From positions 1 to 64,000 of the forward strand of contig JAFEDS010000016.1 in the NCBI GenBank assembly GCA_018241505.1: a stretch of 64,000 nt of DNA. The letters are read 5' to 3'. Shown piece by piece: positions 29,514-39,815 of this stretch. The stretch comes from Pseudomonadota bacterium (GTDB lineage: Bacteria; Pseudomonadota; Gammaproteobacteria; Steroidobacterales; Steroidobacteraceae). Numbering within the stretch: position 1 is the first letter of the stretch; each line of letters opens with the position of its first letter. The notes under the pieces were generated by a model. That model ran no database searches. It saw only the letters and a program-made list of their open reading frames with translations, and was not told where the DNA came from. Both the position numbers and the translations under genes were made by a program.

Positions 29514-29619
29514 GCTCCCTATTACGCCAAATGGCACTCCGGCCGTCACCGAAGATTTTCTTCACAGGCACGTAGTTTTTTGCAACGTGCGGGTAAGACG
29601 GCGCCGTTACGATCCCAAA

Positions 29620-32055
29620 ATGAAAACACATACGCGAGTTGCGGTCATTGGCGGTGGCGTTGTTGGTTGCAGCGTGTTGTATCACCTGACCAAGGCCGGT
29701 TGGACCGACGTCGTCCTCATTGAGCGCGACCAGCTAACGTCGGGATCGACCTGGCACGCAGCCGGTGGATTCCACACTCTGAACGGCGACCCGAATGTCG
29801 CGAAGTTGCAGGGATACACCATCGGTCTCTACGACGAGCTCGAACGGATTACGGGACAGTCCTGCGGGCTGCATCGCTCAGGCGGCCTACTGCTGGCGGA
29901 CACACCGGAACGCATGCAGTGGCTCAAAATGGCGCACGCCCGCGCACGTTACCTCGGACTCGAAACATCGCTGCTGACGCCGAGCGAGGCCAAGCAGTTG
30001 CTGCCTCTGATTGAGGAGAAGTACTTTGTCGGCGCCATGCTGGATGCGGCGGACGGCAACCTCGATCCCTATGGCACCACCCACGCGTATGCGAAGGCTG
30101 CGCGGATGGCAGGCGCAGAGATCTACCTGAAGAATCCCGTAACGGCGCTTTCGCGTCGATCAAACGGCACTTGGGATGTCGTCACCAATGAAGGGACAAT
30201 CAACGCTGAGCATGTAGTCAACTGCGGCGGACTCTGGGCACGCGAAGTTGGGCGCATGGTTGGCATCGAGCTTCCCGTCCTCGCGATGGAGCACATGTAT
30301 CTCGTCACGGACGACATGCCGGAGGTTATCGAGTTCAATCGCGAGCGCGGCCACGAGCTGCCGCATGCGATCGACTTCAAGGCCGAGATCTACATGCGCC
30401 AGGAGCGCAAGGGGATGGTCCTCGGTACTTACGAGAAGGCCTGCGTGCCTTGGAGCCCCAAGAACACACCGTGGGACTTCGGTGCGCAATTGCTCGAGCC
30501 GGATCTCGAACGCATCGCTCCGTCCCTCGAGATTGGATATCAACACTTCCCCGCGATGGCCAACGCGGGTATCCGGCGTGTGGTTAACGGCCCCTTCACC
30601 TTCTCACCGGACGGTAATCCGCTCGTGGGGCCAGTTCAGGGTTTGCCTGGATTCTGGTGCGCTTGTGCCGTCATGGCAGGATTCAGTCAGGGCGGCGGCG
30701 TCGGGCTCGCGCTGTCGCAATGGATGGTCAACGGCGACCCAGGCTTCGACGTGTGGGCGATGGATATCGCGCGCTATGGCGGCTGGGCGACTCGAAGTTA
30801 TACCAACGAAAAGGTCCGCGAGAATTACTCACGGCGATTCTCGATCCGGTTCCCGAACGAGGAACTTCCCGCAGCCCGCCCTCAGCAAACAACGGCACTT
30901 TATGACGTGATGCTCGCTGCAGGCGCCGTCATGGGCGATAGCTGGGGTCTGGAGACGCCGCTGTGGTTCGCGCCGCCGGGTGTTGAACCGAAAGATGTTG
31001 TTTCGTTCCTGCGCTCAAACGACTTCCCGCACGTGAAGGCCGAATGTATTGGCGTTCGCAATGGTGTCGGGGTGACTGAAATCGCCAACTTTGCCAAATA
31101 CGAGATTTCAGGGCCGGGTGCCGAGGCATTTTTGACTCGGCTCATGACCAATCGCATGCCGAAGATTGGGCGGCTCGTGTTGACGCCTATGCTCAACCCC
31201 GCAGGCAAGTTGATTGGCGACTTCACTATCGCCCGCACTGCGCTCGACCGCTTCCTCATGTGGGGCTCGTCACAGGCGCAGGTTTATCACATGCGTTGGT
31301 TTGAGACGCACAAACCAGCCGATGGTACCGTACACTTGCACCGCTTCGACATGGGACTCGTAGGTCTCTCAATCGCAGGCCCCCGCTCCCGCGAGTTGCT
31401 GGCGCGCCTGACCGACGAAGATGTATCCAACGCGGCGTTCAAGTTCATGGACCATCGCTCAATGGATGTCGCGAACTGTCCCGCAATGGTGAATCGCGTG
31501 ACGTACACAGGCGACCTGGGGTATGAGATCTGGGTTGCGCCTGAGTATCAACGGCGGCTGTATGAGGGAATCTGGGCGGCCGGCAAGGACCTCGGACTCA
31601 TCCACTTCGGCATGCGTGCGCTGCTGTCGCTGCGCCTGGAGAAGAACTTCCCCACGTGGTACCGGGAGTTGCGGCCGATCTACGGGCCCGTCGAGGCGGG
31701 AGTCGAGCGCTTTGTCGACTTCAACAAACCCGACTTCATTGGGCGGGACGCGGCCCTGGCTGAGAAGGCCAGCGGTGGGAAGTTGCGCCGAGTCAGCTTC
31801 ACCGTGGACGCCGTCGATGCGGACGTACTGGGCGATGAGCCAATCTGGCACGATGGCAGGGTAGTTGGCTGGGTGACCTCCGGCGGGTACGGACACTTCG
31901 TCGATGAGTCGCTTGCGCAGGGGTACATCCCCGCCGAGCTGGCGGGGGAGTTGGGGGATGGTGCCTTTGAGATTGAGATCATCGGGGAGCGGCGGCGGGC
32001 GTCGATTATCAGTGAGCCGCTGTTTGATCGCGCGGGCGAGCGGATGAGGATGTAG
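29620..32055 (+). CDS. FAD-dependent dimethylglycine/sarcosine dehydrogenase-like protein
   Basis: An 811-residue two-part enzyme. The N-terminal FAD domain (VAVIGGGVVGCSVLYHLTKAG) has the GSTWHAAGGFH motif, whose His is the covalent FAD site in dimethylglycine and sarcosine dehydrogenases. A GcvT/tetrahydrofolate domain from about residue 430 ends with the GYIPAELA tail. The expected reaction is demethylation of an N-methylated glycine-type amine, with the methyl carbon passed to tetrahydrofolate. It is a single polypeptide, unlike the soxBDAG enzyme, so the strain has two routes for N-methyl groups. Start at ATG 29620. Confidence 0.9.
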   Translation: MKTHTRVAVIGGGVVGCSVLYHLTKAGWTDVVLIERDQLTSGSTWHAAGGFHTLNGDPNVAKLQGYTIGLYDELERITGQSCGLHRSGGLLLADTPERMQWLKMAHARARYLGLETSLLTPSEAKQLLPLIEEKYFVGAMLDAADGNLDPYGTTHAYAKAARMAGAEIYLKNPVTALSRRSNGTWDVVTNEGTINAEHVVNCGGLWAREVGRMVGIELPVLAMEHMYLVTDDMPEVIEFNRERGHELPHAIDFKAEIYMRQERKGMVLGTYEKACVPWSPKNTPWDFGAQLLEPDLERIAPSLEIGYQHFPAMANAGIRRVVNGPFTFSPDGNPLVGPVQGLPGFWCACAVMAGFSQGGGVGLALSQWMVNGDPGFDVWAMDIARYGGWATRSYTNEKVRENYSRRFSIRFPNEELPAARPQQTTALYDVMLAAGAVMGDSWGLETPLWFAPPGVEPKDVVSFLRSNDFPHVKAECIGVRNGVGVTEIANFAKYEISGPGAEAFLTRLMTNRMPKIGRLVLTPMLNPAGKLIGDFTIARTALDRFLMWGSSQAQVYHMRWFETHKPADGTVHLHRFDMGLVGLSIAGPRSRELLARLTDEDVSNAAFKFMDHRSMDVANCPAMVNRVTYTGDLGYEIWVAPEYQRRLYEGIWAAGKDLGLIHFGMRALLSLRLEKNFPTWYRELRPIYGPVEAGVERFVDFNKPDFIGRDAALAEKASGGKLRRVSFTVDAVDADVLGDEPIWHDGRVVGWVTSGGYGHFVDESLAQGYIPAELAGELGDGAFEIEIIGERRRASIISEPLFDRAGERMRM

Positions 32056-32065
32056 GCGGCGAATC

Positions 32066-34222
32066 TCACGCCAGCTCGAAGCATTCACGCAGGTTTTCGA
32101 AGGCCACTGCAGCGGGCGATACCGCGATCGCGATCCATCGCCATGCGCGACTGCGGCGAGCCAGCGTGACGCAAAGGGCAGGCAGCCCTAGTATGCGCCC
32201 GTTATCGATGGCCACGCTCAGGCGTCGCAACCCCCGGTTTTGATGGAAATGCGCGGTCGAGCCTGCGATCCGCCGAAACAGGGCGCTGCTGACTGTCGCA
32301 GCAGGCCCTTCAAGAACCAACGCGCTGTCGGCCGCGCACAATTGCGCGACCCGTCTCCAACTCGTGCGCGGGGTCTTTACCCCCGAAAGTGCAGTCCGCA
32401 ATCGCGGCAGAGACGCCGCCCCGGCATCGTCAACGGCATGCAACTCGGCACGCTCAGGTAGCGCCGCAGGCAACACGAGGTCCCACACCAACCCACACTT
32501 GCGAAACACCATTAGCAGCCACCAACCCGGATCCCACTCCCCGGCAAATAATCCGAGCCGCGCGGAACCCGGGAATGCGTGATGATTGTTGTGCCACGAC
32601 TCGCCCATGGTCAGAAGCGATGTGAACCGGATGTTCCGTCCCTGCACAGCGGCAGCGGCGATTTCGAAGTGACGCCCGCCGTTGTTATGCGCGAAATGAC
32701 CTATCAACCAATGGCCGACGACACCGGAAGTGATCCGGGCGCAGACACCCCAAAAAACAAAGCCCCACCCTCCCAGCAAGTACAGACCTACCGCCGGGAC
32801 CGCCTGTTGCAAACGCCACGTGCGCTCGAGGAAAGCGTAGAAGCGATCGTCCGCTATGCGTGGCTCCAGCATCAGAGTGGGCGGATTGTCGAGTTGCAAC
32901 CTGCAGTGCAATTGCCACCAGGCGTCGCGCCAGAAGGAGCTGCCATGCCGCAGGTAAGGATGACACTCCTTCTGCCGCTGCGCGAAATCGCGCAGCTCGT
33001 GTTGGCGGAGTAAACCCAGCGGACCGGCGAGCCCGACCTGAACGCCACAGTAAACCAGGAAGTACTCGAGCCAGCGGGGGCATTGATAGCTGTTGTGAAT
33101 CAGCTTCCTGTGGCTTCCCAGGGAGTGCCCGAGCAGCAGCACGGTCACCGTGCTACTGACGTAGATGGCTGCTGCCGACCAAGTAAATGTGAGGGCGCCG
33201 CCGATGACGGCGGCGGAGGCCATACTGATGAGCCACAACGAGTTCGCGGGGGAGTAGATGACTCGGCCTCGAGCCACGTCCTCGACTGCGTTTACGCGAA
33301 CGCGATGGCCGTTCAAATGCAGCTCAGTGGCCTGTTGCGAGGTGAGGTCTTCTCGCTGGCTGTTCCGCCTGGCCACACCGATTCTGCTGACAAGTCTGCA
33401 GCGCGCCAGAAGCAATAGTACCCGATAACCCGGATCGAGCTGTCCAGGCTCGAGTCCCATATTGGCCGACTCGGGAAAAGCATGGTGATTGTTGTGCCAA
33501 CACTCACCATGCGTCAGCAAGCTCCATCCTGGGAGATCCGATGCCTGTACCCCGGCGCCTTTGACCCGCCAGCGTCCGGGACCCGGGTTGTGAACGACGT
33601 AGGTCACGATCCAATGGCTCGTCACACTGACGGCTACCCGAACCGCGATGCCCCACACAACCCAACTTACCCCACCCATCCAAAAGAAGACAACGGCCAA
33701 CAGCACCTGGTGCAGCGGCCAGGTATATTCCATCAACCGATACCAGGGATCGCGCGCGAATTCAGGTTCGATACGGAATCGGGGCGGCCGGGTGAATTCA
33801 AAACGGCAATGGAGTTGCCACAACGCATCGACCCACAAGCTGCGGCGGTGCGCAAAGAAGTCGTGACAGGACTGTTCGCGCTGCGCCCAGTCGCGCAAAT
33901 CGTGAATCTTGATGATTCCATACGGCCCCGACATACCGACCAGCACGCCGAGCCAGACCAGGAAGCGTTCGAAGGGCTTGCAGCATTCGAATGACCGATG
34001 AATCAATCGTCGATGCATGCCAAGCGAATGCCCCAGCAGCAACGTCACATAACTCGACACGAGAAACAGCGTGAACGCACTCCAACTGAAGAACACTGGC
34101 CCGAGACCAAGGGCGATCACGTACATCAGCGAATACCACAGTGACTTGAAGGGCGACCAAACGACCCTCCCCTCCACAGCATTGGCATCCGTGCCATCAA
34201 TTCGCCAGACGCTTTTTCTCAT
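32066..34222 (-). CDS. Tandem-fused fatty acid desaturase (two complete desaturase domains)
   Basis: A 718-residue membrane protein made of two copies of an acyl desaturase domain in one frame. In each copy the three His boxes occur in order: HRRLIH at 70-75 and HRKLIH at 371-376; H107-D-L-R-D and H408-E-L-R-D with further His at 120/125 and 421/426; WHNNHH at 242-247 and 543-548. All boxes repeat at a constant offset of 301 residues. Box 2 lacks the usual HxxHH of Delta-9 desaturases. The last 120 residues are an extra tail that I do not recognise. Predicted to insert double bonds in acyl chains at the inner membrane using di-iron sites. GGGGAG precedes ATG 34222. It lies 19 bp after an ArsR-type regulator. 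Confidence 0.87.
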   Translation of the reverse strand: MRKSVWRIDGTDANAVEGRVVWSPFKSLWYSLMYVIALGLGPVFFSWSAFTLFLVSSYVTLLLGHSLGMHRRLIHRSFECCKPFERFLVWLGVLVGMSGPYGIIKIHDLRDWAQREQSCHDFFAHRRSLWVDALWQLHCRFEFTRPPRFRIEPEFARDPWYRLMEYTWPLHQVLLAVVFFWMGGVSWVVWGIAVRVAVSVTSHWIVTYVVHNPGPGRWRVKGAGVQASDLPGWSLLTHGECWHNNHHAFPESANMGLEPGQLDPGYRVLLLLARCRLVSRIGVARRNSQREDLTSQQATELHLNGHRVRVNAVEDVARGRVIYSPANSLWLISMASAAVIGGALTFTWSAAAIYVSSTVTVLLLGHSLGSHRKLIHNSYQCPRWLEYFLVYCGVQVGLAGPLGLLRQHELRDFAQRQKECHPYLRHGSSFWRDAWWQLHCRLQLDNPPTLMLEPRIADDRFYAFLERTWRLQQAVPAVGLYLLGGWGFVFWGVCARITSGVVGHWLIGHFAHNNGGRHFEIAAAAVQGRNIRFTSLLTMGESWHNNHHAFPGSARLGLFAGEWDPGWWLLMVFRKCGLVWDLVLPAALPERAELHAVDDAGAASLPRLRTALSGVKTPRTSWRRVAQLCAADSALVLEGPAATVSSALFRRIAGSTAHFHQNRGLRRLSVAIDNGRILGLPALCVTLARRSRAWRWIAIAVSPAAVAFENLRECFELA

Positions 34223-34241
34223 GGAGCGCTCCCCTTTGTTG

Positions 34242-34565
34242 CTAACTTGCAGGCTTGCGACGCCGGGCAATTTCCCGCGATTCTTTCTTCAACGGACGCG
34301 CCACCGGACACAGCTCGAACACAAAGCCCGTCAGGTTGTTTGCCAGGTGGTCGCGATTCAGGCGGTACATCACGAACTGACCCTGCCGTACGCTGGTCAC
34401 CAAACCCGCGTTCTCCAGAACCGATAGGTGTCGGGAAATGGACGGGGCGGTCATTCCGAAGCGCTCGGCGAGCTGGGATGTGGTGAGCTCGGCTTCCGCC
34501 AGGTATGCCAGAATCTGGCGACGCGGCGCGGAGGCGAGCGCTTCGAAAATCTTGTCAATGGACAT
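34242..34565 (-). CDS. ArsR family transcriptional regulator
   Basis: A 107-residue winged-helix repressor: IFEALASAPRRQILAYLAEA, ELTTSQLAERFGMTAPSISR then HLSVLENAGLV. The recognition helix is SAPSISRHL-like; the C-terminal helix contains FELCPVARPLKKES. It has only one Cys and no CxC metal motif, so metal sensing is doubtful; it may belong to the non-metal ArsR group. It leads the operon with the tandem desaturase. A perfect inverted repeat sits between its start and the divergent DUF885 gene, so autoregulation is likely. Confidence 0.9.
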   Translation of the reverse strand: MSIDKIFEALASAPRRQILAYLAEAELTTSQLAERFGMTAPSISRHLSVLENAGLVTSVRQGQFVMYRLNRDHLANNLTGFVFELCPVARPLKKESREIARRRKPAS

Positions 34566-34577
34566 AATAAAGTAGAC

Positions 34578-34606
34578 AATTAGCTAATGTGCTAATTCTT
34601 TATAAT
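34578..34606. promoter_or_regulatory. Probable ArsR operator and -10 box between divergent genes
   Basis: Perfect inverted repeat aattagc-N6-gctaatt at 34578-34597, 13 bp from the ArsR start codon and 29 bp before the DUF885 ATG. A consensus -10 TATAAT follows at 34601-34606 for rightward transcription. Binding at the palindrome would cover the promoter region on both sides. Sequence directly seen; the binding protein is inferred from position. Confidence 0.65.
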
Positions 34607-34626
34607 CTTCAGGGGCGTCCACGTCA

Positions 34627-36327
34627 ATGAAATTCATCCTGCTGGTCATGGCGGCTTTCGCCGCCTGCACGCCTGTCAGCGCCGCTGAGGGAACGTTTCC
34701 GGCATTTGTCGACAAATACCTCGACCGCTTTGGGCACTTCCATCCGTCGATTGCCGCGGGCAATGGATTGCATGCTCACGACGGGGAGCTGGAAGACTTT
34801 TCGGCGCCATCCATTACGAAGGAAGTCGAGTGGTTGCACGGCGCCCGGCGGAACCTCGATGCTTTCGCGGACCAGGATCTGACCGCCGACGAGCGAGTCG
34901 ACCGGAAGATCCTCCAGGGCATTGTGGATGGTTGGTTGCTGGATCTGGACACAGTGCGAACCTGGTCCCGCAATCCCATGATCTATGTCGCCGCCATCTC
35001 TGACGGACTCCACGATCTCATTTCCATGGAGTCCGCGCCGGCGCCAGTGCGGATGGATCGCGTCAGAAGCAAGCTGCGGGCGATTCCGGGGTTGATTGCC
35101 GCCGAGAAGGCCAACGTGAAAGCGCCACCGCGGGTTTTCGTGGAACGCGCGATTGCCATGTTGGATGGCGTCGAAGAGCTGCTATCCCACGATCTGCCCC
35201 TGGCATTTCCAAACTCCACACTGACAGAAGCCGACGCCGCGCGGGCGCAGATTGCCGGCTTCCGCAAGTACTTGCAGGCGACCGTATTGCCGTCGGCAAA
35301 TGGCAGCTACGTTGTTGGCACCGCAAACGTGGAAGCACGGTATCGCGCCGAGGAATTGATCGATCTGCCGGCGAGCCAGCTCCTGGCCATCGGCCAGCGC
35401 GAGCTCGCCAGTGCTCAGAAGGAATTTACCCTCACGGCCGCCAAAGTGGACTCAGCGCGGCCGGCACTCGATGTGTGGCGCGCGGTGCAGGACAATCATC
35501 CGGCACGCGGCCAGGTGGTTCCGGCGGCACGCGCCGTCGTTGGCGAGCTGTTTGCGTTCATTGAACAACACCAGTTGATGCGACTGCCGGCAGACCACGA
35601 AATTGTGGTTGCGCCCGCCCCCGCCTACGACTTGGGGCTCGCGTCCATGCACTCATCGCCACCGCTCGAACCCAACCCAGTCCGAAGCTACTATTACATC
35701 ACCGACGCGGATGCTACCTGGCCGCTCGACAAACAGAACGAATGGTTGCGGACTTTCAACTACGCCACGCTCGCCGACATCAGCGCGCACGAAGTTGCTC
35801 CCGGGCATTTCGTGCACAGCCTTTACATGCGTAAGACTCCGGGCAAAGTCCGCCGCATCTGGGTGGGTCTGAATCCCTTCCCGCAGCCCTCTTCCGGCCA
35901 GGATGGTTGGGCTCACTACGCCGAACAGATGGTCAGCGAGCAGGGCTTTCACGCGAACGAACCGCGTTACCGACTGGCCATGCTGGCCGAATCACTGAAC
36001 CGGCTCTGCCGGCTCATTGCGGGTATCAACCTGCACAGCGGCAAGTGGACAGTTGACGAGGCGACGGCGTTCTTTCAACGCGAGGCGCATCTGCCAGCGG
36101 TTGCAGCGAACCGTGAAGCCGTGCGTGGCACGTATGACCCGACTTACGGCGGCTACGCGTTAGGCAAGTTAGCTGCGTACAAACTTCGTCGCGACTATCA
36201 GAAGGCCAAAGGCGCATCCTTCAACTTGAGGGAGTTTCACGAGCGCGTGATGACGGATGGGATTGCGCCCTGGTGGGCACACCGGCAATTGTTGTTGCCG
36301 GGGGACACAGGGGCGGTGCTGGAATAA
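34627..36327 (+). CDS. DUF885 family exported metallohydrolase-like protein
   Basis: A 566-residue protein with a signal peptide (MKFILLVMAAFAACTPVSA). The C-terminal half has HEVAPGHFVH, an HExxxGH motif typical of DUF885 proteins and thought to bind zinc, followed by QDGWAHYAEQMVSEQGF, where the Glu may be the third ligand. Family members are probable peptidases, but substrates are mostly unknown. It is divergent from the ArsR-desaturase operon and reads from the TATAAT at 34601. It ends 1 bp before the stop of the convergent PepSY gene. Confidence 0.87.
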   Translation: MKFILLVMAAFAACTPVSAAEGTFPAFVDKYLDRFGHFHPSIAAGNGLHAHDGELEDFSAPSITKEVEWLHGARRNLDAFADQDLTADERVDRKILQGIVDGWLLDLDTVRTWSRNPMIYVAAISDGLHDLISMESAPAPVRMDRVRSKLRAIPGLIAAEKANVKAPPRVFVERAIAMLDGVEELLSHDLPLAFPNSTLTEADAARAQIAGFRKYLQATVLPSANGSYVVGTANVEARYRAEELIDLPASQLLAIGQRELASAQKEFTLTAAKVDSARPALDVWRAVQDNHPARGQVVPAARAVVGELFAFIEQHQLMRLPADHEIVVAPAPAYDLGLASMHSSPPLEPNPVRSYYYITDADATWPLDKQNEWLRTFNYATLADISAHEVAPGHFVHSLYMRKTPGKVRRIWVGLNPFPQPSSGQDGWAHYAEQMVSEQGFHANEPRYRLAMLAESLNRLCRLIAGINLHSGKWTVDEATAFFQREAHLPAVAANREAVRGTYDPTYGGYALGKLAAYKLRRDYQKAKGASFNLREFHERVMTDGIAPWWAHRQLLLPGDTGAVLE

Positions 36328-36328
36328 C

Positions 36329-37672
36329 CTACCCGTGGGCGTGCAAGCGGGGAATCGACTCTGCCAGCAAGATCAGAAGCACCGACGCACCGAATAGCGG
36401 CATCAGGACACATGCAGCAACCAGGATAGCCTGCACGGTGACGGGGATACCTGTGGTCACTTTGGGCGGAGCTCCCAGCTTGCCCGCTGGTCGCCTATTC
36501 CACCAGGAAAGGATCCCGGTCACCGTAAGCCAGATCAGGGATGCCGCAAATGCGGTATTGAGCCAAACATTGACGGGTCCGAAATCGGCCTGGTGAACGT
36601 GGACACCCAGGGCGACGAGACGCGGAATCACCGGAATCTGTGCATTCGTAAAGTCACCACGGATGGATCCCACATCAGGATCGGCAACGACTGTTCGATC
36701 CTGGGACGGTAAAACCCCGATGTTGGTCATGAACACTGGCGCACCGGGCCAAGGAGCGAGCCGGATGTCCAACGTCCCGTGCACGCCCGTCCGCCTTGCT
36801 GCGGCGACTGCCTGTTCAATCGGCAGTGATGCATTGGAAAATTGCGCGACGGAAGCGCCCCCTGGCGAGAAACCGGCGGGGCTCGACTGGCCCGTGTTGG
36901 TTTCGATAGCTTGCAACAGCGTATTGCCCCAGAAGGCGGTCCACGGCAACGCGCTGATCAGAAAGAACAGAAAGACAGCAGAGAACCAGACGGCTACGCA
37001 GGAATGCAAGTCCCGGAGCAGGACGCGGGCGCCGGCGCCTGTGCGCGGCCACAAGGCCGCGATGCCGCGGCCTCGTGGCCACCAAAGATACAACCCTGTC
37101 GCCAACATGAGGATTGCCCAGCCGTCGCCGAGCTCGAGTAGCCAACTACCTGGTTGGCCCAGCGGCCAACCGCCGTGCAAGGCGCGGGACATGCCTGGGA
37201 GCCAGGCGGTGCCTGAGAGTTGTCCCAGCACGACGCCGGTGTTGGGGTTGACGAAGACGGGAAATGGGAGGCTGTTGCCGTGTTGGAAGAGCACGGTGGT
37301 GCTGCGGGTGGGGTCGTCAGGGAGAAGGACGCGCTGCACGGCTAGGCCGGCTGAGCTAGCGCCACCGTGGTGGGCGTGGCCACGCGGCGCATCGGCGACA
37401 CCGGCATGGCCAGCGGCAGTCAGCGCGGCGTCCGCAGCGGCGCCACTCGCTTGGCCGCCGGCAACCGCCCCAAGCGCCGCCTGGATCTGCTCACTCAGCG
37501 GCAACGGCGCCCTGGCCGGCTCAACAAACCGTAGTTGCGGATGAGCCCGGTCCATCCACCACTCCGACCATAGATACAACGTCCCCGTTACGCTCTGCCA
37601 GAGCACGAAGGGAACGACGAGAAGCGCTGCGAAAAAATGCCAGCGCCACAGCCGTCCGTAGAGGTTTCTCAT
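36329..37672 (-). CDS. PepSY-associated transmembrane protein
   Basis: A 447-residue inner-membrane protein of the PepSY-TM family: N-terminal helix WRWHFFAALLVVPFVLWQSVT, then SRALHGGWPLG, ILMLATGLYLWWPRG, RDLHSCVAVWFSAVFLFFL, VHVHQADFGPVN and two C-terminal helices. The conserved His in the helices fit haem-b or metal-reductase roles proposed for the family. The periplasmic loop contains a His-rich patch (RGHAHHGG) in an Ala/Gly-rich insert. It shares ATGA with the TonB receptor upstream. Such pairs typically reduce or handle iron-siderophore or copper after outer-membrane uptake. Confidence 0.88.
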   Translation of the reverse strand: MRNLYGRLWRWHFFAALLVVPFVLWQSVTGTLYLWSEWWMDRAHPQLRFVEPARAPLPLSEQIQAALGAVAGGQASGAAADAALTAAGHAGVADAPRGHAHHGGASSAGLAVQRVLLPDDPTRSTTVLFQHGNSLPFPVFVNPNTGVVLGQLSGTAWLPGMSRALHGGWPLGQPGSWLLELGDGWAILMLATGLYLWWPRGRGIAALWPRTGAGARVLLRDLHSCVAVWFSAVFLFFLISALPWTAFWGNTLLQAIETNTGQSSPAGFSPGGASVAQFSNASLPIEQAVAAARRTGVHGTLDIRLAPWPGAPVFMTNIGVLPSQDRTVVADPDVGSIRGDFTNAQIPVIPRLVALGVHVHQADFGPVNVWLNTAFAASLIWLTVTGILSWWNRRPAGKLGAPPKVTTGIPVTVQAILVAACVLMPLFGASVLLILLAESIPRLHAHG

Positions 37673-39744
37673 AGCCGCACCTTCGCACCGGCAATTGCAG
37701 TGAACGGCGTGCCACGCAGCGGCGGGTTGAAGCCCGAGTTGTTGGCGATATACCGCTCATTGAAGAGGTTCTCAAAGTGCAGAAATACTTCCGCGTTCTT
37801 GCTGATTGAATATGCCGCGCTGAGGTCAACGATGTGCTGCGCATCGACCGCCAGCGTGTGATCGTTGTCGCCGTAGGAGGACTGCAGCCATCTGAACTGG
37901 GGCGTTAGACGCAAGCCCCACGGGCTCTGATACGTCACGCTGACACTGGCGCGGTTCTGCGGCACATCGGCAATCTGCTTATCAACACTGGCGGGATCGA
38001 GGGCATTTGCGGTGATGCGGGAGTCGGCGAAGTTGTAAGCGACAGAGGCAGTCCACCCCGTCGCCACATCGACTTGTGTCTCCAGCTCGAGACCGCGGCT
38101 GCGGGCCTTGCCCGCATTTATATTGCGAGTCCCGAAAAAGAACCCCGGCGGCAGCTCGTTGAATTGCAGCGTCCGGGACGTGATCAGGTTGTCGATGGAA
38201 TTGGTGTAGGCCGTGACCTGTGTTCGCAGGCGTGCCGTGTGAATATCAAAGCCCACCTCCCCGCCCTTCAGGCTCTCCCGTACCAGCTCCGGGTTGGCGT
38301 AGAAAATTCCGAACGGAACCGAGAATGCACGATAGAGGTTATCGAGCGTGGGTGCGCGAAAAGCGCTGTAGTACGCCGCTCTGAGCGCGAACACACTGGT
38401 CAGCGAATACCGCACGGACACGCGCGGATCAACACTCGACTCGGACGAGTCCGGAGCGTTTCCCAACCCACCCGGCGTCCCATCAAACGCAGCAAAGTTG
38501 TGGAACGACTGGAAGCGCACGCTGGCGAGAATCTCCAGCGCATCGAGCGGCTTGATGCTGGTTTGGGCGAAACCGCCCCAGAACCGCTGCTTCCCGCGTC
38601 CGATGTCCGTGCGCACCCGTGTCCCAGTCTCATCGAAAATGTCGGAGACATCCTCTCCCGCAATCCGATGGTAGTCGGTGCCGAAGGAGTACGAGCGCAA
38701 CCATCCCCAATTGAGAGGATGTGACCAGGCCAGAGAAATGCCGACATCCTTTACCGGCGTCCGATGCACATTCTCCAGGAACTCGGCCTGGTTCTCCGGA
38801 ATGCCAGCGAATCCGCCCGTATTGTCCGTTGTGAACGTGGAATCGGATCCAAAGGCGGTCAGTGTCAGGTCGGCGCTCTGGAGAAATTGCTGCTGCAGTG
38901 AGCCGGCATAGTTCCAGGTGTGCTGCGCGTTGTGGCTGAGACGGGTCTGCAGGGTCTGGTCATTGTCAAAGTAGTCGACCCGGGCGGTGGCCTTCAGGCT
39001 CGACGTCAGATCAGTGCTTGCGCGGAAAGCCGCATTGTTCGAAGTAAAGGCCGTCGGAACATCGACCGGCCCGCGTACGTCGGGGCCGATCTGCATGAAG
39101 CCGTCGGTATGATTTCGGCCTGCCGAAACGGCGACCCGCGCCGAGTCCGACAACAGATACGACCCGAACGCGTTGGCCCGATAGGTTCCAAAGCTGCCGC
39201 CGCTGAATTCGGCGGCCAGCTCATCCGTCTCAGGATCGCGCGTTCGAATATTGATCACACCGCCCATGGCGTAGTTTCCCCACAAGGTGGCACCACCGCC
39301 GCGGACGATCTCCACCTGCTTGACCAGCTCCAGTGGAACCCTGCTCCACTGCAAGTAACCGAAGAACGGATCGTTCATCGGTACGCCATCGAGCAGCACC
39401 AGGGCACGAATCCCTCCCAGGCCCCGCATCGAGATGTTGTTGGCGGTCGGATGAAGCTGATACGAGGTTGCGTTAGGCAGGTCCACGGAAGCCGAGCGCC
39501 TCAGGATGTCATCGAGCGCCTGCCCTGGAGTATCGGCAATTGCCTGGGCACCGACCACACTGACACTCTCCGGAACCTCATTGATGGCTCGCGCCGAGCG
39601 CGTCGCGGTCACGACCACTGACTCGGCCGGGTCCGCATCGAAATCGGGCGCGGTCTCAGCCGCGCGAATGCCGCGACTGCCTAAAAACGTAAAAAGCAGC
39701 GCACACGACCCCAGGGCCGCGCGGTTGCGCGTTGGAATGAACAT
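37669..39744 (-). CDS. TonB-dependent receptor (metal/siderophore type)
   Basis: A 691-residue outer-membrane receptor. Signal-like N-terminus from ATG 39744, then ESVVVTATRSARAINEVPES (TonB box and start of plug), DDILRRSASVDLPN, ISMRGLGGIRALVLLDGVPM and VEIVRGGGATLWGNYAMGG, then a barrel ending in Leu after KVRL. The plug style resembles BtuB/copper and siderophore receptors. It lies between a His-rich DUF2946 gene and a PepSY gene on the same strand, which favours a metal as cargo. Confidence 0.9.
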   Translation of the reverse strand: MFIPTRNRAALGSCALLFTFLGSRGIRAAETAPDFDADPAESVVVTATRSARAINEVPESVSVVGAQAIADTPGQALDDILRRSASVDLPNATSYQLHPTANNISMRGLGGIRALVLLDGVPMNDPFFGYLQWSRVPLELVKQVEIVRGGGATLWGNYAMGGVINIRTRDPETDELAAEFSGGSFGTYRANAFGSYLLSDSARVAVSAGRNHTDGFMQIGPDVRGPVDVPTAFTSNNAAFRASTDLTSSLKATARVDYFDNDQTLQTRLSHNAQHTWNYAGSLQQQFLQSADLTLTAFGSDSTFTTDNTGGFAGIPENQAEFLENVHRTPVKDVGISLAWSHPLNWGWLRSYSFGTDYHRIAGEDVSDIFDETGTRVRTDIGRGKQRFWGGFAQTSIKPLDALEILASVRFQSFHNFAAFDGTPGGLGNAPDSSESSVDPRVSVRYSLTSVFALRAAYYSAFRAPTLDNLYRAFSVPFGIFYANPELVRESLKGGEVGFDIHTARLRTQVTAYTNSIDNLITSRTLQFNELPPGFFFGTRNINAGKARSRGLELETQVDVATGWTASVAYNFADSRITANALDPASVDKQIADVPQNRASVSVTYQSPWGLRLTPQFRWLQSSYGDNDHTLAVDAQHIVDLSAAYSISKNAEVFLHFENLFNERYIANNSGFNPPLRGTPFTAIAGAKVRL

Positions 39745-39815
39745 CTGAGCCTCGTCAGGACAATAGACCACGGTGCACGACCAGCGTCATGCATCGAAAC
39801 GGACGTTTGTGTTGG

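Follow-up and report, generated by a model that had tools for sequence, protein, structure and literature searches.

A single-chain pair of desaturase-like domains, probably a fusion of two old paralogues from a clade with an HxxRD second histidine box

The 64,000-nucleotide stretch of DNA analysed here, called the window, encodes a protein of 718 aa in which two membrane desaturase-like domains follow each other. The gene is a single uninterrupted frame on the minus strand, with its ATG at 34222 and its stop at 32066, and it appears to have arisen by fusion of two old paralogues from different subfamilies, here called A and B, of one clade with an unusual second histidine box. The parts of the gene are as follows.

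34229..34235, minus strand: ribosome-binding-like AGGGGAG, six bases upstream of the half A ATG (by eye)
32066..34222, minus strand: two-domain fused desaturase-like protein, 718 aa
33323..34222, minus strand: half A, residues 1-300, HDLRD box 2, own ATG start (8-row clade, support 100/100)
33998..34015, minus strand: half A box 1, H70-x4-H75
33890..33904, minus strand: half A box 2, HDLRD (107-111)
33482..33496, minus strand: half A box 3, HNNHH (243-247)
32423..33322, minus strand: half B, residues 301-600, HELRD box 2 (16-row clade, support 100/99)
33095..33112, minus strand: half B box 1, H371-x4-H376
32987..33001, minus strand: half B box 2, HELRD (408-412)
32579..32593, minus strand: half B box 3, HNNHH (544-548)
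32066..32422, minus strand: C-terminal tail, residues 601-718 (homologous tails in loci L026 and L148)

The original prediction had described two complete domains in one frame, with all three histidine boxes repeated at a constant 301-residue offset, and this description holds. PF00487 is found twice by Pfam search within the uninterrupted frame, and each half alone passes the curated cut-off of 29.7 (39.9 and 36.6 bits). The offset from A to B is exactly 301 residues at box 1 (H70/H371), box 2 (H107/H408) and box 3 (H243/H544). Aligned with each other, as had been proposed, the two copies share 45% identity and 63% positives over 269 columns, with a score of 261 bits; when half A was compared with 200 shuffles of half B, the top score was 27.3 bits. 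The odd second boxes are also read as predicted, and the paired downstream histidines are seen in C119-H120/H125 of half A and C420-H421/H426 of half B. In contrast to PF00487, the NCBIfam DesA family (NF049918), with its threshold of 400, is reached neither by the whole protein (63.8 bits) nor by the halves (32.4 and 39.7). In a hydropathy scan, both halves share three hydrophobic regions and A alone has another before box 3; four helices are resolved in neither half.

A signature alignment combined three canonical controls with 99 clade rows, of which 97 are distinct and two are the halves themselves. The pairs L039/L132 and L041/L150 are identical, representing either duplicates of one contig or very close kin. 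Rows scoring below 250 bits are canonical desaturases and were left out of the clade. The two downstream histidine positions (H120 and H125) are His in 88 and 95 of the 99 rows, respectively. Over the 97 other rows, 48 columns show at least 95% conservation; all 48 are kept by half B and 46 by half A, whose two misses, 276 and 284, lie at the domain end, away from the boxes. Both halves carry nearly all clade-conserved residues.

Relatives were obtained as 80 loci from a scan of 84,980 species (the best 80 of 593 matches, confirmed) and from whole-genome searches. A first comparison covered 86 of the 99 listed relatives and the two halves; for a 102-row tree, 8 near-duplicate or partial rows of these 86 were removed, and 21 relatives and 3 controls were added. 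In the latter, half A lies inside the 8-row clade with genome G044, the second gene of a pair in genome G146, Alteromonas, Erythrobacter and others, and half B inside the 16-row clade with Pelomonas, Aquabacterium, Janthinobacterium, Massilia and members of the window's own family. Forcing A and B together costs 117.6 log-likelihood units, with p-AU = 5.8e-10 (AU test on 99 rows, the 102 tree rows minus 3). Since the halves fall into separate, well-supported clades and the AU test rejects their union, the gene is best read as a fusion of two old paralogues. The nearest relatives of half B are single-domain proteins of Pelomonas, Aquabacterium and similar bacteria, with up to 70% identity. The best identities of half A are 57% to an intact gene and 69.8% over 212 residues to a broken remnant, and its terminal branch measures 0.66, vs. 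0.24 for half B. Moreover, the A and B clades are separated by 13 near-fixed differences, among them positions 103 and 207 (Trp153 and Asn265 in human stearoyl-CoA desaturase 1, SCD1), which would fit different specificities of the two clades.

For half B, no in-frame ATG is present between residues 256 and 333. In-frame GTG or TTG codons near the junction stand at 270, 283, 303, 316 and 329, and inspection by eye found no obvious ribosome-binding site at them. The fused chain is therefore the expected product, with a weak internal start for B being possible. The tail of about 120 residues had been called unassigned. This stands as far as Pfam is concerned, in which its 118 aa have no match, but not with respect to homology: the tail of Pelomonas sp. 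Root405 (L026) is matched by phmmer with E 7e-12 (38.6% over 132), and in genome G805 (L148), one tblastn-type match spans query residues 282 to 703. With blastp of the tails alone, L026 was the only match listed. The tail as an orphan is ruled out by these homologous tails, and because both carriers are B-type single-domain relatives, it seems to have come along with half B. The GC content over the locus is 0.57-0.63 in three 1-kb steps; the step 34000-34999, with 0.571, is the lowest of 24 (maximum 0.646), a weak signal. Promoter-like sites are at shuffle level (1 vs. 0.6), and terminator-like sites number 5 vs. 2.9 in shuffles (sd 1.9).

Subfamilies A and B are both found elsewhere as single-domain genes, and the HxxRD box is present in single-domain clade proteins, as the original prediction had stated. 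It had added that a fused pair was not known to it, and the searches, including the one it proposed for other two-copy desaturases, agree: among the genomes searched, the fusion occurs in one only. No second gene with both halves in one frame was met in about 1,190 genomes (overlapping sets: 60 relatives, 396 genomes from the order, 217 from the family, 369 from the class and 398 from the phylum, plus 20 individually chosen), and beyond the window, no two-domain frame occurs among the best 80 of the 593 matches of the 84,980-species scan. A survey of 150 genomes gave no frame with two PF00487 places among the matches listed. On plasmids, no fusion is seen among the best 20 of 32 matching records, in which the sole query coverage above 80% belongs to a single 966-base gene matching both halves. 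Phages gave no match to the fused protein, and E. coli gave none by megablast. No earlier description of fused two-desaturase proteins was found in the open full-text literature, subscription journals and preprints being mostly beyond reach. The window's genome itself has three further PF00487 places, each with one match per frame. Box 2 is the canonical GHRVHH in L003 and HLRHH in L002, which shows that the odd box is not general in this genome.

In three genomes, two clade members are adjacent as separate genes. Those of G146 (L112 1525-2463 and 2457-3410; L121) overlap by 7 bases; the second belongs to subfamily A and the first to another subfamily, outside the B clade. In G971 and G995 (L146, L147), two members stand head to tail adjoining a divergent ArsR-type gene; these pairs are not A plus B and are placed in another group of the tree. 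In L121, L146 and L147, the two members of each pair take different tree positions. An A-type gene or remnant occurs in nine genomes, four of which (G1184, G1185, G1186 and G1166) are without a second family member at E <= 1e-25; the idea of A as an obligate companion of B does not hold up. Two apparently intact members are present in the window's genome (G000, fused), G146 and G442, and as separate adjacent genes only in G146. In G044, the second copy is a 149-aa open frame, and in Pelomonas Root405 (G1188), A is a broken remnant and B is intact. The G044 frame (L128 4626-5072) is of clade type, truncated or frameshifted, and comes after AraC-type and SRPBCC-like genes. The Root405 remnant (L156 1553-2188) has a stop and a lost box-3 His, lies on a contig other than that of B, and adjoins a transposase-like frame (by eye).

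The clade to which both halves belong is marked by an H-x2-R-D box 2, C119, D132, H203 and an HxNHH box 3, all present in both halves. According to record titles, many of them of metagenome bins, it extends over Pseudomonadota, Planctomycetota, Verrucomicrobiota, Cyanobacteriota, Chloroflexota and Actinomycetota. The product name in the three clade records whose annotation was read is acyl-CoA desaturase, given by similarity. Box 2 is HxxRD rather than HxxHH in 99 of 99 rows. Seven ligand positions of SCD1 are His in every row (70, 75, 107, 211, 243, 246 and 247 in the window protein), the conservation of box 3 being partly selected because some rows were collected by box-3 patterns, while box 2 was never a pattern. 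The positions of human SCD1 His160 and His161 are Arg and Asp in all rows. The nine-histidine di-iron set of the SCD1 type is thus incomplete, two of the nine positions being non-His in both halves and in 99/99 rows. The downstream canonical His is replaced by Asp132 throughout, and Cys119 is equally invariant. At the position of Asn265, Gly is found in 84 rows, Thr in 8 (all of the A clade), Ser in 4, Val in 2 and Cys in 1. New histidines appear at positions 65 and 203, each in 98 of the 99 rows.

Residues of the substrate tunnel are changed as well. According to PMC8533217, from which the human ligand numbering is also taken, the trio Gln147/Trp153/Thr261 bends the SCD1 tunnel at C9-C10. All three residues are replaced in 99/99 rows: position 97 (Gln147) is M, L, V, I or F, position 103 (Trp153) is M, L, I, T or V, and position 203 (Thr261) is His in 98 rows and Tyr in 1, whereas the three canonical controls keep Q, W and T. 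The entry 'HIS127' of the human ligand list is taken by us to mean His157. Mammalian SCD1 (4ymk, 4zyo and 6wf2) provides the only convincing solved relatives by sequence, with profile E values of 5.2e-10 and 7e-9. It shares with the clade the seven histidines and a spacing of 37 residues from box 1 to box 2, which is the same in the window protein, the controls and SCD1; it differs in the two ligands turned into Arg and Asp, in Asn265 and in the kink triad, and it is not a fusion. The HMMER clade profile opens a nine-column gap against SCD1 before box 2 and leaves the two boxes unpaired; the gap-free register is taken as right, supported by the cyanobacterial controls. These desaturases, of Nostoc sp. 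HK-01 (L136) and Gloeothece citriformis (L137), have about 33% identity (tblastn) and the same layout, but a canonical GHRLHH box 2 and Q, W, T and N at the substrate and metal positions.

PMC10359943 reports nine His ligands in SCD1 and finds that the mouse enzyme deprived of His265 is inactive and retains about one iron. The counterpart of mouse His265 is kept in both halves (His211 and His512), presuming the mouse-to-human numbering behind this match. Lacking two of the nine histidines and the bend-shaping residues, the clade would differ from ordinary desaturases either in the working of its metal site or in its chemistry. With these ligand and tunnel changes in all its rows, desaturation as its chemistry is open to doubt.

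The surroundings of the fused gene contain the following features.

34242..34565, minus strand: ArsR/SmtB-type regulator, 107 aa, 19 bases upstream of the fused gene
29587-32055, plus strand: 822-aa protein with DAO, FAO_M, GCV_T and GCV_T_C domains (sarcosine/dimethylglycine-dehydrogenase-like), convergent with the fused gene
34627-36327, plus strand: DUF885 protein, divergent from the ArsR-type gene
36329-39771, minus strand: PepSY_TM protein and a 700-aa TonB-dependent-receptor-like frame (by eye)

The regulator scores 87.1 bits against NF033788 (cut-off 55) and 78.4 against the SdpR model, under the cut-off of 100. Counting the window, and leaving out 12 short duplicate loci and 6 own-genome loci, 31 of 99 loci have a homologue; in 28 of these 31, one is found no more than about 615 bases upstream, on either strand. 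Among 18 other B-type loci, L124 being counted by similarity, the regulator is just upstream on the same strand in six (L026, L032, L035, L036, L125 and L126) and divergent in one, and eleven are without a homologue. With only six of 18 loci so arranged, insertion of A between regulator and B is put forward as a suggestion. An AraC-type or MarR-like gene is found near other clade loci. On a Phaeobacter inhibens plasmid, an ArsR-type gene and a clade gene are divergent (L135 5599-6909); since the plasmid was typed as conjugative, the module is able to move.

In 20 of 99 loci, the clade gene has a membrane protein nearby whose C-terminal part is presumed to bind lipid; the same holds for L128, L149 and L155, out of 14 loci that were additional or re-fetched. 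In Novosphingobium sp. P6W, NCBI names an 'SRPBCC family protein' directly after ArsR and desaturase; Pfam, run on three such membrane proteins, gave PF10604 below threshold in one, and the SRPBCC identity of the remaining neighbours is our own reading. Examples are found at L032 7050-8207, L078 4988-5980 and L138 6931-8262, one of them SRPBCC per NCBI. The recurrent protein is a possible lipid-handling partner. One query with it, run without a positive control, gave no match in the window's genome, and none of the window neighbours (DAO/GCV_T dehydrogenase, DUF885, PepSY_TM) is a lipid pathway gene. The PepSY_TM and TonB-dependent-receptor-like pair possibly serves iron uptake.

The explanation that we favour, with moderate confidence, is a fusion of paralogues within the HxxRD clade of integral-membrane, SCD1-like PF00487 proteins, giving a single-chain heterodimer of oxidases that would act on one lipid. 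A subfamily-A gene would have been placed in front of a subfamily-B gene, in the same orientation and reading frame; the B gene would already have had its tail and probably stood behind an ArsR-type regulator. Each half would fold as a membrane domain of its own, resembling SCD1 and with a cytosol-facing active site, and both would bind metal and activate oxygen. The chain would be a built-in heterodimer for two related oxidations of a single membrane lipid or acyl chain; in the simplest case, each would be a desaturation at a position of its own. A built-in dimer or two double bonds in one pass had been suggested by the original prediction as well. The gain would be a fixed 1:1 ratio and close placement. 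The ArsR-type protein may repress the operon until a signal appears. In favour of this explanation are, besides the two domains above the PF00487 cut-off, their separate clades, the conserved columns kept by both halves, the 13 near-fixed differences between the clades and the missing ATG for B near the junction, the tailed B-type genes that have no A part (L026, L148), the adjacent separate pairs of G146, G971 and G995, and the same-strand upstream regulator in six of 18 other B-type loci, as in the window. Several observations go against it: the fusion is known from a single genome, the nine-histidine site is incomplete, four of nine A-type genomes lack a second member at E <= 1e-25, so that A does not need B, the GTG/TTG codons may be starts of a separate B product, eleven of the 18 loci are without a regulator homologue and one has it divergent, and the one SRPBCC-like query was unmatched in the window's genome.

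The original prediction had seen in the gene an in-frame duplication that stayed fused, that is, a tandem copy of one gene made in place. The similar length of the halves, the exact offset and the 45% identity speak for it. However, the equal offsets are explained by domains of near-equal length, and each half is closer to foreign single-domain proteins (57% and 70%) than to its twin (40-45%). The separate clades and the AU test (p = 5.8e-10) overturn this claim, and in-place duplication is so improbable that we regard it as ruled out. An assembly or sequencing error, by which neighbouring or overlapping genes were seemingly fused through a lost stop or an indel, is quite unlikely. Overlapping separate pairs of clade genes do exist, and the only assembly with the fusion has an estimated contamination of 5.67%; on the other hand, there is no in-frame ATG around the native start of B, the A-type gene is second in G146 but first in the window, and the neighbouring frames are long and intact (822, 700 and 566 aa).

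Fusion of paralogues being preferred, the function of the halves can still be read differently. One half may be a non-catalytic partner, a scaffold or regulator of the other; the longer branch of half A (0.66 vs. 0.24) and its two missed columns of 48 would agree with this, but the other 46 are kept, among them every clade-conserved His, Arg and Asp of the boxes, and this reading is unlikely. It is more conceivable, though still not what we expect, that clade members are other oxidases (hydroxylases, epoxygenases or the like) and that the protein is two such enzymes fused. The invariant HxxRD, the change of the downstream canonical His to Asp, the wholly replaced kink triad, the near-invariant His65 and His203 and the SRPBCC-like membrane neighbour in 20 of 99 loci argue for this; the fold family, the seven retained ligand positions out of nine and the similarity-based name acyl-CoA desaturase in three annotated records argue against it. 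A bolder combination, which we hold as tentative and rather doubtful, would make the HxxRD clade a separate metalloenzyme class with a mixed histidine-carboxylate site and an altered tunnel, and the window protein a heterodimer whose two active sites would handle one membrane lipid in turn, for two coupled oxidations. As part of that same doubtful combination, Asp111/Asp132 and the new His65/His203 would replace the lost histidines as ligands.

Among the known systems that come close are single-domain proteins. The 'acyl-CoA desaturase' of a Novosphingobium sp. P6W plasmid (L138) belongs to the HxxRD clade and has an ArsR-type gene upstream, and the unannotated Pelomonas sp. Root405 protein (L026) shares the clade-conserved residues, the upstream ArsR-type gene and the tail, but both have only one domain. 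Another such system is an AlkB-desaturase fusion of Pseudomonas putida EM2-4, a single chain of 754 aa; as PMC12903215 describes it, two domains of the desaturase/AlkB kind are likewise joined, but these are a desaturase-like part and an alkane monooxygenase, not members of one desaturase clade. In cytochrome b5-desaturase fusions, the membrane desaturase has an electron donor as partner, unlike the second desaturase-like half of the window protein (PMC5037126). The survey in PMC5037126 kept only proteins of 350-550 aa, and a protein of 718 aa would be missed.

The fusion is a rare variant inside a known superfamily, and the more interesting object is the clade of both its halves. A natural fusion of two diverged family members hints that their products act together, and it offers biochemists a fixed heterodimer to study. 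The clade is widespread and little studied; it is without two of the nine iron-binding histidines and the bend-shaping residues, yet the label in the three annotated records is 'acyl-CoA desaturase'.
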